From: Hymenobacter jeongseonensis
Lineage (GTDB): Bacteria > Bacteroidota > Bacteroidia > Cytophagales > Hymenobacteraceae
Direction: 5' to 3'
NCBI RefSeq assembly: GCF_015694725.1
Contig: NZ_JADQDQ010000008.1
Span: forward strand, 62,001 to 126,000
DNA: 64,000 bases
Made by a program: the position numbers and the translations under genes. A model generated the notes under the pieces. The model searched no databases and was not told the DNA's origin. It worked only from the letters and a program-made list of their open reading frames with translations. Of the stretch, positions 125 to 10,372 are shown one piece after another; within the stretch, counting starts at the first letter, position 1, and every line of letters begins with the position of its first letter.

Positions 125-1681
125 CTACTCCTTGGGCGGTTGGTCGTAGGCGCTTTTTGCTGGTGCGCTGTCTTGGCTAAAACTGGCACCACGACCAAGA
201 AAGTTGGTTGGTAATTCATCGGTGCCCGGCCCGCCGTAAAGGCGCAAGGCAGGAAGCCGCACGGGTTGGTTGCCGTGCTGCTCAATGGTGAAGATATCAT
301 TGCCTGCGAGCCCTTCCAGTTGAATTGTGCGGGTTTCGGCGGGCAAAAAAGTGCGGCGAAACTGGGGGGGCTGGTCAGAACTCCCCGCCGTAACCAGCCG
401 CACCGTCACCACCGTGGAGTCACGGTAGCGATGAATTTCGAACCGTTCGGCCTGGGCGGTGCCTCCAACAAGCACATGCTGGGCCAACTGCCGGTAGTAG
501 GCTGCTGCAAAAGCAGGCAAAGCGGCTCTGCGGGCTTGAAGGGCGGAGATAATGCCCGGGCCTTCCAAGGCAAAGGCGGCGGCCGGCATCCGGCGCACGG
601 CCCGGCCGATGAGGGAATCGGGTAGTTTCTGCTGCATCGCCCGTGCGGCTGCCTCAAAATCGGCCCGCGAGAGCTGGTTAAGACTCCGCTCGTCCAGGTA
701 CTTGCCGTTCGACATCAGATGGGCAATATTGGGATAGCGCGGCCGGAAAGTGGTCCAGTGGCGAATGGCCAAATGCCCGATTAGCCAACCCAGCACTCCG
801 TCATCGAGCCGATAAAAAACCATGTCCCGGTCTTTGGGCAGCGGCAAAATGCTGGCGAACCCGGCATTGGGCTGTGTTCGGACCAACCAGTTCCACTGGC
901 CGGCGTGCCGGTCCCAGTCACCCAGCCAGCCGTCGAGCAACCGGGCCCGCAGCAAGGCCGCTTGGTCCATGCGCTGGTTGGGGCTTGCGAACACCCCCGT
1001 AAATGCCGTTGTGCTGCTGGCCGGGTTTCCCGCGCCGCTGCTGGGAGGCGCAACGGCGTATTTTTCTTCCAGATAAGCGAGTTGCCCCCGAAAAAGGCGC
1101 AACGAATCCGTTTGAAAGAAAGCGTCATCGGGCCGCACGTAGTAGAGGCTGGGCTGCGCCCGGGCCACGCCCAGCGCTTGCGCAAATGGCGGCACAACCA
1201 GCGATGCGTAAGGGTTGGTAGACGACACATTATCGCGCAGCACATTCACTAAAAAAGTGCCTTGCAGCAGCTTGGGCGTAGCCCTGATGGGGTCTTTGTC
1301 CACGGTACGCAGGACGTAGCCCTGACCCGTGGGAGTACTTAAATTGAGACTGGTGCTGTTGAACCCGCCGCCCACTTTGCCGGGCCTCAAGCCACCCGGT
1401 TGAGCGGTGGCGAGGCGCAGTACGGGCGCCGCGATGGGGGCAGCCCAGGTGCTCCGGTAGTGCCGGCCAATCAGCGCGTGGTACAGGCGGCCATGCCGGG
1501 CATATTGCCGGCCCGCCGTGACGCCATGCACACTATCGGCCGAAGCCGAAAGGGGCTGCGCAAGGGCCGAATCCGGCCGGGCGTCGGCTTGGAAGTACTG
1601 TTTTCTTACGCAGCCGGGACCAATTACTAGGCAGGCCAGCGCACCTATGAGCACTACAGAAGTTTGAAGAGGCGACGGCAT
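125..1681 (-). CDS. secreted kinase-like lipoprotein, paralog 1
   Basis: The 518-residue protein has a hydrophobic N-terminus with Cys17 and Cys24, so it is probably exported and lipidated, though neither Cys sits in an ideal lipobox. It is the first of three paralogs in the window. A YVLRTVDKD strand lies at 122-130, LEEKY at 204-208, GDWDRH at 254-259 and RLDDG at 291-295. In order and spacing these resemble the ATP-binding strand, helix-C Glu, catalytic DRH and metal-binding Asp of HipA, CotH and FAM20-type kinases; this is inference from motifs. A GLAGND motif near 457-462 marks a separate beta-rich C-terminal part. From memory, similar segments occur in long Bacteroidota metallophosphoesterase/BamA-like proteins. 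It lies 73 bp downstream of paralog 2 in the same direction, probably one transcript. Export is likely; kinase activity is unproven. Confidence 0.6.
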   Translation of the reverse strand: MPSPLQTSVVLIGALACLVIGPGCVRKQYFQADARPDSALAQPLSASADSVHGVTAGRQYARHGRLYHALIGRHYRSTWAAPIAAPVLRLATAQPGGLRPGKVGGGFNSTSLNLSTPTGQGYVLRTVDKDPIRATPKLLQGTFLVNVLRDNVSSTNPYASLVVPPFAQALGVARAQPSLYYVRPDDAFFQTDSLRLFRGQLAYLEEKYAVAPPSSGAGNPASSTTAFTGVFASPNQRMDQAALLRARLLDGWLGDWDRHAGQWNWLVRTQPNAGFASILPLPKDRDMVFYRLDDGVLGWLIGHLAIRHWTTFRPRYPNIAHLMSNGKYLDERSLNQLSRADFEAAARAMQQKLPDSLIGRAVRRMPAAAFALEGPGIISALQARRAALPAFAAAYYRQLAQHVLVGGTAQAERFEIHRYRDSTVVTVRLVTAGSSDQPPQFRRTFLPAETRTIQLEGLAGNDIFTIEQHGNQPVRLPALRLYGGPGTDELPTNFLGRGASFSQDSAPAKSAYDQPPKE

Positions 1682-1754
1682 TCGGAAATTGTGTGCAGTA
1701 CTAAGGAGCTTTCTGAAAAATCACCCCATGGTACCCAATGGCTGAGATTTCGAG

Positions 1755-3377
1755 TTAGCGACCTTTGGTGTCGAGGGTGCGGTCGTAGGGGAGACGTTTT
1801 TTCTTGGGCGGCTGGGGCCGCGGGGCTTGGGCGGCGGTCAAATCTGAGGTTTCATCGTAGAGTTTGAGCCGATTGCCCGAGCCTTTTAAGCGAAGTATGT
1901 CCTGTCCGGCGCCACCGTACACAAGCAATGCGATGGGTCGGCCGGCGCCTATAGTTTCTAGCTCGAATACATCGTTTCCACTCAGCCCTTCCAAGCTGAG
2001 CTCGCGCGTTTCGGCATTGAAATACGTTCGCCGAAATTGCAGCGAATCCCGGCGGGCGACCTTATTCGGGGCGGTTGAAAACACGCGCACCGTGGTAGAA
2101 TCGGGATAGCGCTGCACCACAAACCGTTCGGCCTGAGCGGTGCCGCCCACCACGGGCTTGCGGGCCAGCGTCAGGTAAAAGGTTTCGGCGGCTTGGGGCA
2201 GCGTTTCGCGGCGGGCTTTAAGCGCGCTGCGCAGGGTAGGACCTTCGAGGGCGTAGACGGCCGGCGGCAAGCGGCGCAGGGCCCGTTCAATGAGCGAATC
2301 GGGCAGGCGCCGCTGTAAGTCGGCCGCGGTGCGGCTAAAATCGGTGCGAGTCATTTGTTTGAGGCCGCGCTGGTCGATAAAGTCGCCTTGCTGTACCAAC
2401 CCCGCTACGTTACCGTAGTTGGGTTTGAACGTTTGGAACCGGGGAAGAATGAACCGCCGGCTGACAAACCAGGGGATTATGCCGTCATCAAACCGGAAAT
2501 ACACTTGGTCCCGGTCTTTGGGAATGGCTTGGTATCGGACGCGGCCATCGGGTTTCTTGAATTCGGCCCAGTCCCATTGGCCTTCGTGGCGGTCCCAGTC
2601 GCCCAGCCACACGTCCAGCAGGCGGGCCCGCAAGAAGGCGGGCTCATCGATGGTATGCGCGGGGTTGGCGTACACTTGTTCCAACACGGACTCACCGCCT
2701 TTAAAGTCGGTGGCGCCAGCGAGGTCGGCCGTACGCGAGGCCAGAGCATCGTACTTCTCTTCCAGCAAGGCCACTTTGCCCTGAAACCGTTCCGACATTT
2801 CGCCCAACCCGGTTTCATCCTGCCGCACATAAACTAGCCGCGGCCGGGTATGAGGCACTCCGGCCGCTTGGGCAAAGGGTGGCACCGTGAGGGCGCCGTA
2901 GGGCATAGCGGCGGATGTGGCATCGCGCACCGTATTCAACAAAAAACTGTTTTGCAGAAACTTAGGCAACGTTTTGACGGGGTTCTTATCCAATGCCCGC
3001 AGCGCGTACTCTCGTTCTTTGGTGCCCTCCATCGTCATGCTGATGCTTTGGAATCCCCCGCCGGGCTTGCCGGCTTTCAGCCCCCCGGGAGCGGCAGTGG
3101 CCAGCTGCAGCACCTGCACCTTGGCGGGCGCGGCCCACACCGGCCGGTAGTGATGCCCCCAGAAAAACTGGTAGAATTTGGAGTAGCGGTTGTACTGGCG
3201 GCCTGCTACGGTCAGCACGCTGTCGGTGGCGGGAGGCAGAGGCTCGGAACTGCCGACGCCAATGCGCGCATCGGGCTGAAAAAAATCACGCCGGGCGCAG
3301 CTGGTAGTCGCCAACGCCAGTCCGAACAGTAAAAGACAGAAATGAGAAACCGGCGGTTGGGCGGAAAGTGGAGGCAT
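1755..3377 (-). CDS. secreted kinase-like lipoprotein, paralog 2
   Basis: This 540-residue protein has an N-terminal hydrophobic stretch ending in TTSC (Cys27), a credible lipobox, so it is probably an envelope lipoprotein. It shares its whole length with the neighbouring paralogs: the YALRALDKN strand at 124-132, LLEEKY at 204-209, GDWDRH at 259-264, IPKDRD at 285-290 and RFDDG at 295-299. The DRH and DDG pair is intact and resembles the catalytic and metal-binding pair of HipA/CotH/FAM20-like kinases. A GLSGNDVF motif followed by YGGAGQD lies in the C-terminal part. The ATG at 3377 is preferred because it leads directly into the signal peptide. It is divergent from paralog 3 and upstream of paralog 1. 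The substrate is unknown. Confidence 0.62.
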   Translation of the reverse strand: MPPLSAQPPVSHFCLLLFGLALATTSCARRDFFQPDARIGVGSSEPLPPATDSVLTVAGRQYNRYSKFYQFFWGHHYRPVWAAPAKVQVLQLATAAPGGLKAGKPGGGFQSISMTMEGTKEREYALRALDKNPVKTLPKFLQNSFLLNTVRDATSAAMPYGALTVPPFAQAAGVPHTRPRLVYVRQDETGLGEMSERFQGKVALLEEKYDALASRTADLAGATDFKGGESVLEQVYANPAHTIDEPAFLRARLLDVWLGDWDRHEGQWDWAEFKKPDGRVRYQAIPKDRDQVYFRFDDGIIPWFVSRRFILPRFQTFKPNYGNVAGLVQQGDFIDQRGLKQMTRTDFSRTAADLQRRLPDSLIERALRRLPPAVYALEGPTLRSALKARRETLPQAAETFYLTLARKPVVGGTAQAERFVVQRYPDSTTVRVFSTAPNKVARRDSLQFRRTYFNAETRELSLEGLSGNDVFELETIGAGRPIALLVYGGAGQDILRLKGSGNRLKLYDETSDLTAAQAPRPQPPKKKRLPYDRTLDTKGR

Positions 3378-3548
3378 CCGGAGAATTAGGGGGCGGGATT
3401 TGGGCCTTTAACGCAAAACCCTGCCAAAAGTCGACCATTGGGAAGCACAACCGTACAACCATTGGCCATGCGTTTGCGGTATAGGCAAGGCAAGGCCGCC
3501 GTTTTCAGCCCGTACAAGGGCGCGATGGCCTTGGAAAATTCATCGGCT

Positions 3549-5150
3549 ATGTCCAGGATATTTGATAGTTGCGCCGGCTTTATCCGTGGGTTGGCTTGCG
3601 CGGTTGCCTTGTTGCCGATGGCTTGCAACGGCCAAAACGCTGCCCGCAATGTGCCAACCCAATGGGCGCCTGATTCAACCACCGTGCGCCGGGCCGCCGG
3701 GCCCGAGTACAACCGGGGGGCCGTGTGGCGCTTCTTTTGGGGGCAGCATTATCGCGAGATATGGGCCACGCCCGTTACGGTGCCAGTGTTTCGTTTGGCC
3801 ACTGCCGTGCCGGGGGGCTTGGTGCCGCTCCAAGCGGGCGGCAGCTACCAAAGCCGAACCTTGCGCCTGCGCGCCGCTAGCGGCCAGGAGTACGTGTTGC
3901 GTTCCGTCGACAAAGATGCCAGCGCCGCTTTCACCTCCAGCTGGCAGCGCTGGCTGCTGGGCGGGCTCATGAAAGACCAAACCAGCGTGGCCCAGCCCTA
4001 CGGCGCCTACGTGGCCGCCCAGTTGGCCGAGGCGGCAGGAGTTTACCACACCAATCCGCGGCTGGTGTACCTGCCGGACGACCCGGCGCTGGGCAAGTTC
4101 CGGGCAGCCTATGCCAACGACCTGTACCTGCTGGAAGAGCGGCCGGATGGCAACCAGCGCACCGTGGCCAGCTTTGGCCACTCGCCCGCCGTGCACAGCA
4201 CCGGCCTGATGCTGGCCACCATCCACGAGCGGCCCAGTGCCCAGATTGATGCGCGGACTTACTTGCGGGCTCGCCTGCTGGACGTGTGGCTGGGCGACTG
4301 GAGCCGCCGAGAAGACCAGTGGCGTTGGGCCAGTTTTACCCACGCCGGCCGAATGACCTACCGGCCCATCCCGCGCGACCGCGACCAAGCCTTTTTTCTA
4401 TTCGACGATGGGTTCTTTACCCGCATCATTTCCTGGTTCGTACCAAAGTACCAGAGCTTCCACGCACGCATTCGGCCCGGCGCGATTGATGGCCTCACGG
4501 CCACGGCCCGCTCCCTCGACCGCACATTGCTGGGCACGCTCACCGCCGAGGACTTTCGCCAAGTGGCCGATTCGCTGCGGCTGCGCCTGACGGATGCGGC
4601 CATCGCCCGCGCTTTTACCGCGGGCCCGCCCGAAACCCGCGCCAGCATTTCGGCTTATTTCGAGCCCTTGCTGCGCGCCCGCCGCGAGCAACTGGCCGAG
4701 GTAGCCCAGAGCTATTACAAGCTGCTGGCCGAGGAGGCGTGGGTGGTAGGCACCGACTACGCCGAGCGGTTTGTGCTCAGCGATGCCGGGCCGGGCCGCT
4801 TGCGGGTGAAGGTGTTTGTTCAGCGGCCCAACCAAGCCGATAGTCTGGTCACGGAACGCACGTATGACCGCCGGGAAACCTCGGCCGTGGAGCTGTATGG
4901 ATTGGCGGGTAATGATATTTTTGAGGTGCTCGCGCCCTGCAAATCCGGGGTGGCGGTGCACGTTTTTGAAGGCGCAGGCCGCAACCAGCTTGTGAGCCCC
5001 CGCCAGAAAAATTCCGAAGTTTCTGACATTACGTGGCACACCAGCCCCAGCGGAACCACCATTAATCCTACGAAGGGAGTCACGGTCAAAACCACTTCGG
5101 ATTCGACCGTAACCAATGCCCGGAGTTGGCTGTCGCGCTACCGGCTGTAA
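3549..5150 (+). CDS. secreted kinase-like lipoprotein, paralog 3 (degenerate core)
   Basis: The start at 3549 (MSRIFDSC) is chosen because it places a hydrophobic segment ending at a Cys (LLPMAC) near the N-terminus; upstream starts at 3438 and 3525 give an untypical leader. The product is 533 residues. It keeps the YVLRSVDKD strand, the LLEERPD Glu motif, a PRDRDQ segment and LFDDG, but the catalytic-looking motif reads GDWSRR (Asp250, Ser252, Arg254) where the paralogs read GDWDRH. If the family is kinase-like, this copy should be inactive or changed. A GLAGNDIF motif is present near the C-terminus. The 3' end overlaps the convergent CrtA-like gene by 13 bp. It is divergent from paralog 2 with about 170 bp between starts. 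Confidence 0.6.
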   Translation: MSRIFDSCAGFIRGLACAVALLPMACNGQNAARNVPTQWAPDSTTVRRAAGPEYNRGAVWRFFWGQHYREIWATPVTVPVFRLATAVPGGLVPLQAGGSYQSRTLRLRAASGQEYVLRSVDKDASAAFTSSWQRWLLGGLMKDQTSVAQPYGAYVAAQLAEAAGVYHTNPRLVYLPDDPALGKFRAAYANDLYLLEERPDGNQRTVASFGHSPAVHSTGLMLATIHERPSAQIDARTYLRARLLDVWLGDWSRREDQWRWASFTHAGRMTYRPIPRDRDQAFFLFDDGFFTRIISWFVPKYQSFHARIRPGAIDGLTATARSLDRTLLGTLTAEDFRQVADSLRLRLTDAAIARAFTAGPPETRASISAYFEPLLRARREQLAEVAQSYYKLLAEEAWVVGTDYAERFVLSDAGPGRLRVKVFVQRPNQADSLVTERTYDRRETSAVELYGLAGNDIFEVLAPCKSGVAVHVFEGAGRNQLVSPRQKNSEVSDITWHTSPSGTTINPTKGVTVKTTSDSTVTNARSWLSRYRL

Positions 5151-5866
5151 GACTCAGGTGCCGCGAGTAGCCCCGCCAGCGGGTCTTGCCCATCCAAGGT
5201 GCCGCTGCTGGCCAGCACCTGGAACCTAGCAAACAACTCCTCGCCGTACCACTGCTCGCTGCGCGTGAGTTTGATGACTTCCCGATGACGTACATCGCGG
5301 TAGGCGTATTCCTGCATGGCCTGCGCCGACTCCCATACGCTGAACGTGGCCTGCCGCACCAGCGGCAGCTCGCCCAGGCCAATGGCGGCGCGCACGCCAC
5401 CGGCCTGTGCCAAGGCCGCGCTGGTGGGTTCGACAAACTGCCAGAACCGGGGCGTTTTGCGTAGGCGGATGCTAGCGCGGGTGAGCACGGCCAGGGGCGC
5501 GTTTTCGGCCGGTAGTTGGGAAATGGGATAGTCAAACGGCGTTTTGCCGTCCCACAGGCCGTGCGCTTTCAGGGGCGCCAGCTGCACCGTCCACATTTCG
5601 CTGCTTCGTACCTTGTATGTCGCCCATAGTGAATGCTGGCCAAAAAAAACTGCTGCCGCCGCGGCATCTTCCCACACGCCCATGAAACCGTAGCGGTCCA
5701 GGTTGGGCCAGAAGCCGAATCCGTTGTTGGCGCCGCTGCCCATCAGCTTGAAAAAACGGAGGCCCGGTACGCGGTGCAGGGAAGCTGGAGAAGTGCCCAT
5801 CTGGGCCAAACCCCAGCGCCGATTGCCGGGCTTGAGGGTGAATACGGTGAGGGTGGTGTGTGGCAT
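5138..5866 (-). CDS. CrtA-like (spheroidene monooxygenase family) protein
   Basis: This 242-residue protein resembles the spheroidene monooxygenase (CrtA) family of haem-dependent carotenoid ketolases, judged from the N-terminal TLTVFTLKPGNRRWGL, the central MGSGANNGFGFWPNLDRYG (42-60) and the C-terminal SVWES and AYRDVRHREVI segments. The family oxidises acyclic carotenoids. Many Bacteroidota members have no proven substrate, so ketolase activity is an inference from family and from the carotenoid pigmentation common in Hymenobacter. The ATG at 5866 is preferred over 5911 because the terminator of the upstream PNPOx gene ends near 5917. No other carotenoid gene lies nearby. The 3' end overlaps the convergent lipoprotein gene. 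Confidence 0.65.
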   Translation of the reverse strand: MPHTTLTVFTLKPGNRRWGLAQMGTSPASLHRVPGLRFFKLMGSGANNGFGFWPNLDRYGFMGVWEDAAAAAVFFGQHSLWATYKVRSSEMWTVQLAPLKAHGLWDGKTPFDYPISQLPAENAPLAVLTRASIRLRKTPRFWQFVEPTSAALAQAGGVRAAIGLGELPLVRQATFSVWESAQAMQEYAYRDVRHREVIKLTRSEQWYGEELFARFQVLASSGTLDGQDPLAGLLAAPESYSR

Positions 5867-5916
5867 GCAGGCGGCGGGCCAGCGGCCAGTTGGCCCGCCA
5901 GCGGATTTCAATCAAC

Positions 5917-9292: not shown

Positions 9293-10303
9293 TTATTTGC
9301 AAAATTTAGCCAGCCATTCATCGGCGTCCTTCGAACCCAGCGTTTTCACTTGTTGCCAGTCGGTACAAGCGTTTTGAATTTGGTTGCTTTCCTGGTAGCA
9401 GGTGGCCCGGTGGTAATAGGCATCAATTTCGTAGGGGTCAAGCTGAATGCAGACGGATAACAGCGCGATGGCGGACTGGTATTCTCCCTGATTTTTCAGT
9501 TTGATGGCCATGTTATATTTCTGGTCGTAGTCCATCCGCGTGGCGAAAGTGGAAAACTTGAATCGGATTTCTTTTTCAACAGCTACCGTGTTGCCATCGA
9601 GCATGGCCGGTCTCCATAAGCCATCCGTTTTCCGAATAGCTTTGACAAATTGCTTGTCAAAAGCTTGGTTTCGGCCTTTGTGAATTTGAATGGTATCAAG
9701 CTTGCCAGAGGGCAACACCACGAAACTGGCCACGAAAAAGCCAGCAACGCTGCTTGATGCATGCAACGCACTAATGTTGTCAAGGAGGAAGGCATCCAAT
9801 GAAGACTTCAACTGAAGTTCCGGAGTCAGTTTTTGGCTTTCCTTGTAAACGAGTTTGTCCCGGCGGTAAACGGCGGTTTCCTGTTCTGCAGGCAGGGTGT
9901 TTTGGTACTGTTGCTCGCGGGTAAAGGTGTACCGAATGGCGGGTTCATCGGTGCCTGCGCTTGCTTCCTCAAGCAAAACCAGGTGGGCACTGTCAATCGA
10001 CTCTACAGTATAAGTATTGATGCCAAAAACCAGCGTATTGCTCTTGATGGCATAGGCCATTGCAAACCCTTTATCCCTGAAATCGACGCTTTTAAAGCCC
10101 TGGCCGTTTTTATAGAAGCTAAAGCGCAGGTAAGCTTTTTTGGAGCGAAAAGTAATCGGCAGCTCTTCGCCTGTTTTGGCTTGGATACGCGTTTTTATCC
10201 ATGAGCCGAGCAATAATTCCGACGCAGACTTTGCCCTGGAATTACTGCTCGGTAGATACGCAAAGAGTGATAGGAGGCAGAAAAAACGTATGAACCCTTG
10301 CAT
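9293..10303 (-). CDS. TonB C-terminal-domain protein with TPR tail
   Basis: The 336-residue protein begins with a probable signal segment (MQGFIRFFCLLSLFAYL). A lipocalin-like or unassigned N-terminal part is followed by a TonB C-terminal-like domain around residues 185-265 (SVAGFFVASFVVLPSGKLDTIQI) and by TPR-like sequence near 275-330 (GEYQSAIALLSVCIQLDPYEIDAYYHRA is one 34-residue-type unit). The ATG at 10303 is preferred over 10321 because it begins the signal sequence. Unlike a true TonB it lacks a Pro-rich linker, so transport energising is doubtful; a protein-interaction role in the periplasm is more plausible. Its base composition looks less GC-rich than its neighbours. Confidence 0.6.
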   Translation of the reverse strand: MQGFIRFFCLLSLFAYLPSSNSRAKSASELLLGSWIKTRIQAKTGEELPITFRSKKAYLRFSFYKNGQGFKSVDFRDKGFAMAYAIKSNTLVFGINTYTVESIDSAHLVLLEEASAGTDEPAIRYTFTREQQYQNTLPAEQETAVYRRDKLVYKESQKLTPELQLKSSLDAFLLDNISALHASSSVAGFFVASFVVLPSGKLDTIQIHKGRNQAFDKQFVKAIRKTDGLWRPAMLDGNTVAVEKEIRFKFSTFATRMDYDQKYNMAIKLKNQGEYQSAIALLSVCIQLDPYEIDAYYHRATCYQESNQIQNACTDWQQVKTLGSKDADEWLAKFCK

Positions 10304-10372
10304 GGATGAATCCGGTGCCAAAGCCTGCTGCAGAGTATTTTCTGCAGCGACTAGCGTTGCGCAAGTTGAGAA

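Follow-up and report, generated by a model that had tools for sequence, protein, structure and literature searches.

The left end of the window, a 64,000-nucleotide stretch of the 5.19-Mb genome of Hymenobacter jeongseonensis, encodes three paralogous lipoprotein-like proteins that we refer to as P1, P2 and P3 (Table 1). The open reading frames lie where a sequence-only reading of this DNA had placed them, and the paralogy it described is confirmed by pairwise identities of 46% between P1 and P2 and 32% between P1 and P3. P1 and P2 form a same-strand tandem and P3 is divergent. For P3, the listed TTG is a mechanical call and the ATG the probable start, since the signal peptide and lipobox then sit directly at the N terminus. 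The neighbourhood of the trio is conserved within Hymenobacter and uninformative on function; its members are presumably an App1-like phosphatase, a topoisomerase IB, a transglycosylase and a CrtA-like protein. The CrtA-like protein, which has a weak DUF3291 match, adjoins the trio (window 5138-5911, minus strand), and a TonB_C plus TPR protein is encoded at window 9293-10321, also on the minus strand.

Table 1 Features of the P1-P3 locus, in window coordinates
Feature	Position	Strand	Basis or remark
P1, kinase-like lipoprotein	125..1681	-	518 aa; P2 paralog, present in trio genomes
P1 KDRD	824..835	-	sequence
P1 catalytic loop GDWDRH	905..922	-	sequence
P1 lipobox VIGPGC	1610..1627	-	N-terminal leader reading
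P2, kinase-like lipoprotein, GDWDRH type	1755..3377	-	540 aa
P2 beta-rich tail module	1857..2156	-	model; GLSGND motif at 1971-1988
P2 kinase-like core, residues 53-407	2157..3221	-	AlphaFold2 model
P2 KDRD, candidate metal-binding Asp	2508..2519	-	aligned to CotH IPxDxD
P2 catalytic loop GDWDRH	2586..2603	-	aligned to CotH WD
P2 LEE, conserved Glu 206, hinge-type position	2757..2765	-	role inferred
P2 YALR strand, then conserved Lys 131	2997..3008	-	role inferred
P2 GGGF, candidate glycine-rich loop (family GGGxQ)	3051..3062	-	role inferred
P2 lipobox LATTSC	3297..3314	-	N-terminal leader reading
P3, kinase-like lipoprotein, GDWSRR type	3549..5150	+	ATG 3549 preferred; ORF open from TTG 3438
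P3 lipobox LLPMAC	3609..3626	+	N-terminal leader reading
P3 GDWSRR, Ser replacing catalytic-loop Asp	4293..4310	+	sequence
P3 RDRD, retained metal motif	4374..4385	+	sequence

Each of the three proteins begins with a hydrophobic leader followed by a Cys residue. Across the genus, 93 of 99 N termini carry a hydrophobic stretch ending in [GSA]-Cys (a count made with a simple script, not with a trained signal-peptide predictor), and the lipoprotein-type leaders claimed earlier thus hold. In Bacteroidota lipoproteins, the known surface-export signal consists of acidic residues after the Cys. The residues that follow the lipobox Cys in P1-P3 are not acidic, making a periplasm-facing anchor the likelier arrangement, and judged from their N termini the proteins are probably lipid-anchored in the envelope.

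P2 is predicted to have a kinase-like core

AlphaFold2 modelled P2 with high confidence, both over 513 residues with 93 homologs (pLDDT 93.7, pTM 0.93) and as the core alone (pLDDT 96.2). Foldseek comparison of the full and core models with the PDB returned kinase-fold proteins, classed by eye from the entry descriptions, for all of the best 50 matches, including PI4KIIalpha, CotH, HipT, HipA, FAM20C, Rio2 and COQ8-type proteins; MSMEG_1954, Rv3197, YihE and pre-40S chains were counted among them as proteins that we take to be kinase folds. The core matches PI4KIIalpha (E = 1e-3, probability 1.00), CotH 5jd9 (E = 2e-3, probability 0.99), HipT (E = 4e-3), FAM20C (E = 7e-3) and HipA (E = 8e-3). 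The relation to kinases is remote, as E-values across the best 50 are modest (1e-3 to about 0.1) and TM-scores low (mostly <0.4, and at most 0.38 with query normalisation), rmsd values are large, and no close solved structure occurs among the PDB fold matches. Searching a viral library retrieved a phage PI3/4-kinase-like protein (E = 1e-7) as well as phage CotH-like proteins. The two-lobe kinase-like fold expected of the PKL superfamily is present in the prediction (pLDDT 94-96, predominantly kinases as Foldseek matches, low TM-scores), and the kinase-like core first proposed from motifs is upheld by models that retrieve CotH, HipA and FAM20C, all three named beforehand.

The GND-type, beta-rich tail that the sequence-only reading set apart as unlike a kinase is also present in the P2 model, with strands at residues 382-480 of 513 and a GLxGND motif. 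Natural flavobacterial homologs of about 425 aa lack this tail, identifying it as a separate module.

Remote profile similarity to CotH

Family libraries leave the proteins unassigned. Pfam provides no credible family match for the trio or the 93 homologs, NCBIfam has no match for the trio, and a PDB sequence search with P2 returned nothing. The CotH model PF08757 finds no match above cut-off in the trio, the 93 homologs or the rest of the genome, the HipA_C model PF07804 finds none in the trio, and the FAM20 model finds none in the trio or the 93 homologs, such that likeness to FAM20 is one of fold only. A 93-row HMMER profile searched against the PDB gave no significant kinase, the one kinase match, CtkA over the catalytic loop, having E = 0.48.

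Direct profile comparison with 30 CotH proteins revealed a remote similarity over the catalytic motifs, with a score of 37.7 (P = 3e-4) that exceeds every shuffle among 30 full column shuffles (15.3 +/- 2.7, maximum 20.8) and 30 block shuffles (20.5 +/- 3.0, maximum 30.3), and also the reversed profile (17.2). The alignment places LGDWDRH on the CotH WD and IPRDRDQAF on IPxDxDxxFG. The same comparison with HipA was not significant (P = 0.08). P2 shares with CotH (the Bacillus spore-coat kinase, PDB 5jd9/5jda) a predicted kinase-like fold and the register of the catalytic loop and IPxDxD motif, and the P2 family, like CotH, works beyond the cytoplasm of the growing cell. The trio differs from CotH in having Gln for the catalytic-loop Asn, a lipoprotein leader, a tail module and no Pfam match.

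Other kinase-fold proteins resemble P2 in fewer respects. PI4-kinase II and the phage PI3/4-kinase-like proteins are the best fold matches and have no detectable sequence similarity to P2; PI4KII is a eukaryotic lipid kinase of the cytoplasmic side. HipA, HipT and CtkA match in fold, CtkA weakly by profile on the catalytic loop, and by our own reading their motif order is similar; HipA differs in that its family model is unmatched and its profile comparison not significant, and HipA and HipT are cytoplasmic toxins.

Candidate catalytic motifs are conserved in P1 and P2 and partly altered in P3

Candidate catalytic positions are strongly conserved among the 93 homologs. In P2 numbering, K131 is kept in 87, D152 in 86, E206 in 89, D260 in 90, Q267 in 84, D288 in 85 and D290 in 83, with R263 and R289 each kept in 83-90. 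The DRH Asp, D262, is kept in 68 of 93 and replaced by Ser in 18. P1 and P2 carry the PKL order of a catalytic Asp (DRH) followed by a metal Asp (DRD), whereas P3 lacks the base Asp. We infer from motif order and secondary structure that GGGxQ is the nucleotide loop and K131 the beta3 Lys. K131 is conserved, yet no helix (alphaC) Glu is conserved across the 93 homologs, and D152 may substitute for it. On the same grounds the LEE Glu resembles the Glu of the CotH hinge region (LYxxxE) more than one from helix alphaC. Where CotH and HipA have a catalytic-loop Asn after the base, the family has Gln. The CotH D228Q variant, in CotH's own numbering, is reported to be inactive in Bacillus subtilis (PMC7821199).

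These data revise several motifs proposed for the trio. GDWDRH, given for all three proteins, is found in P1 and P2, and P3 reads GDWSRR; the YVLR...DKD strand, likewise given for all three, reads YALR..DKN in P2. The kinase-like fold proposed from these motifs is borne out by the models, but the Glu of LEE looks hinge-type and the metal-binding Asp probably lies in DRD (P2 residues 288-290), judged by alignment, rather than in the downstream DDG. DDG does occur in P1, P2 and P3. We rejected it as the metal motif, since across the 93 homologs only its G is invariant, with the preceding D kept in 74, and DRD is the motif that aligns to CotH.

Conserved pairing of GDWDRH and GDWSRR genes

A divergent GDWDRH and GDWSRR gene pair is present in nearly every Hymenobacter genome seen, and in each locus with both genes resolved; L024, L027 and L084, where only part of a neighbour is present, were left out of the scoring. 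Genomes with the trio carry one extra GDWDRH gene besides this pair. In a midpoint-rooted tree, the 17 Ser rows fall in one starred clade and the 33 Asp rows in another, the two together forming a starred set. Every scored copy in the P3 clade has Ser in place of the base Asp and retains DRD, which argues that this clade is not decaying. By analogy with FAM20A, the natural reading of the pairing is an active enzyme working alongside a putative pseudoenzyme. FAM20A is the pseudokinase partner of the secretory kinase FAM20C, and FAM20C/FAM20A resemble P2/P3 in fold match, DRH-type motif, secretory location and, as an analogy, the combination of active and inactive paralogs. FAM20C differs in being eukaryotic and without sequence similarity found to P2, and a P2/P3 complex is hypothetical.

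Long homologs fuse the domain to Omp85 barrels

The family extends beyond the trio: homologs occur in at least 42 of 59 relatives (E down to 1e-228, far above chance), and across the phylum 111 of the 297 genomes searched have one. Most Bacteroidota homologs are long, with the domain forming the undescribed middle of large proteins. Judged by ORF length, with domains tested on examples, these fall into a class of about 1200-1400 aa that combines a calcineurin-like phosphoesterase (PF00149), the kinase-like domain and an Omp85 barrel, and a class of about 860-960 aa that has the kinase-like domain and barrel without the phosphoesterase. Two long homologs with all three domains are encoded in the H. 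jeongseonensis genome itself (L006 2358-6512 and L007 4141-7887), and that of L007 lacks the DRH Asp, reading ADFGKHEDNW. Homologs in L098-L108 have degenerate GDWDRH/DRD motifs, a pattern suggesting that proteins fused to the barrel have lost catalysis more than once.

Omp85 and phosphoesterase fusions set the long homologs, rather than the trio, apart from CotH. The long homologs share PF00149 and the barrel with the 'Metallo' subfamily in the Omp85 survey of Heinz and Lithgow 2014 (PMC4104836), which calls PF00149 a metalloprotease and also describes a 'noNterm' subfamily; the trio has neither feature. The words kinase and phosphatase are absent from the main text of that survey (PMC4104836), where the kinase-like middle domain apparently went unidentified. 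Our literature search found no paper on the kinase-like domain, and solely this survey bears on the fusions.

Long homologs recur near polyphosphate genes

Recurrent neighbours of the long homologs include an HD protein that also carries PycTM, an SdiA-regulated propeller, Ppk1 and a SixA-type phosphatase. Ppk1 is close by in 7 of 40 phylum loci (L178-L217) chosen without regard to it, against a chance expectation of about 0.3 (two copies per 4-Mb genome). In and near Hymenobacter, Ppk1 lies within 16 kb of 36 of the 47 long homologs among the matches listed, although species of a single genus that share synteny do not count as independent observations. Both long homologs of H. jeongseonensis are near Ppk1, and that of L007 is also near a Ppx/GppA gene. 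No polyphosphate gene lies next to the trio itself, which may by now serve a different function from the long homologs linked to polyphosphate, and VTC polyphosphate polymerase is absent from the genus Hymenobacter.

Further features of these loci recur across Bacteroidota. HD-PycTM, Ppk1, SdiA-regulated propeller, SixA and kinase-like Omp85 protein form a conserved cluster (L178-L217, L173 and L199). In L173, L174 and L199, a true CotH lipoprotein, Porin_O_P and a PAP2 phosphatase are encoded near the kinase-like barrel protein, L173 and L174 having been picked for the nearby CotH gene and thus not being independent for CotH. A protein of about 800 aa (L206:2769-5192, with relatives in 11 loci) also recurs near long homologs and has no credible Pfam or NCBIfam match.

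A candidate envelope phosphotransferase family

On balance we favour the reading that the trio belongs to an unnamed PKL family and comprises an envelope phosphotransferase with a non-catalytic P3 partner, operating outside the Bacteroidota cytoplasm. Fold, conservation, export leader, pairing, fusions and neighbourhood are computed, and from them we infer catalysis, donor, substrate and pseudoenzyme role. P1-P3 would be exported through the lipoprotein signal and then lipid-anchored in the envelope. P1 and P2 would retain the residues of a phosphotransferase, with the GGGxQ loop, the Lys, the DRH Asp as base and DRD for metal, and most likely move a phosphoryl group onto a protein, glycan or lipid of the envelope, with P3 most likely assisting or regulating P2 without catalysis of its own, much as FAM20A does with FAM20C. 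For the long homologs, the Omp85 fusion, often with a phosphoesterase, and the nearby polyphosphate kinase suggest that phosphate or polyphosphate may be handled at the outer membrane. The periplasm is presumably ATP-poor, which counts against an envelope kinase.

The whole family could instead be a non-catalytic kinase-like scaffold whose cleft binds nucleotide, polyphosphate or another phosphorylated ligand, with a part in outer-membrane sensing or assembly. Copies without the base Asp persist, both in the P3 clade and among the long homologs (several cases), and this, Gln in place of the catalytic-loop Asn, and barrel fusion, which suggests assembly or transport, all fit such a role; a pure scaffold would have no need of the DRH Asp (68 of 93) or the DRD Asps (83-85 of 93), both kept by P1 and P2, and we regard it as rather unlikely. 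Proteins with a kinase fold may also be AMPylases, glutamylases or pseudoenzymes, and activity switches are, to our knowledge, established in the PKL superfamily. An enzyme of other envelope chemistry, catalysing glutamylation or protein AMPylation as does the kinase-fold AMPylase SelO (PMC12663964), would suit a motif set divergent from protein kinases. With SelO outside the best 50 fold matches and a long-form neighbourhood concerned with phosphate and polyphosphate, we consider it improbable. Low TM-scores and weak profile signals could reflect an unrelated fold with coincidental motif order, for example a binding domain of Omp85 proteins, an explanation rendered very improbable by high-confidence models, consistent retrieval of many kinase families in the best 50 and a CotH score above every shuffle.

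As an extension of the envelope phosphotransferase reading, and a speculative one that we hold to be quite unlikely, the long homologs may be outer-membrane writer-eraser machines, with kinase-like and phosphoesterase domains on one Omp85 polypeptide and polyphosphate or its products replacing ATP as donor in a periplasm short of ATP; the Hymenobacter lipoproteins would then be a detached version, an active kinase with a pseudokinase activator.

If the envelope phosphotransferase reading is correct, a major phylum has a widespread unnamed kinase-like family that acts beyond the cytoplasm, and the unannotated middle region found in many large Omp85 proteins would be explained and tied to polyphosphate metabolism. 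The Hymenobacter pair would be a bacterial case of a conserved active and inactive kinase pair, and the P1-P3 family would make the phosphoryl donor of an envelope kinase a testable question.
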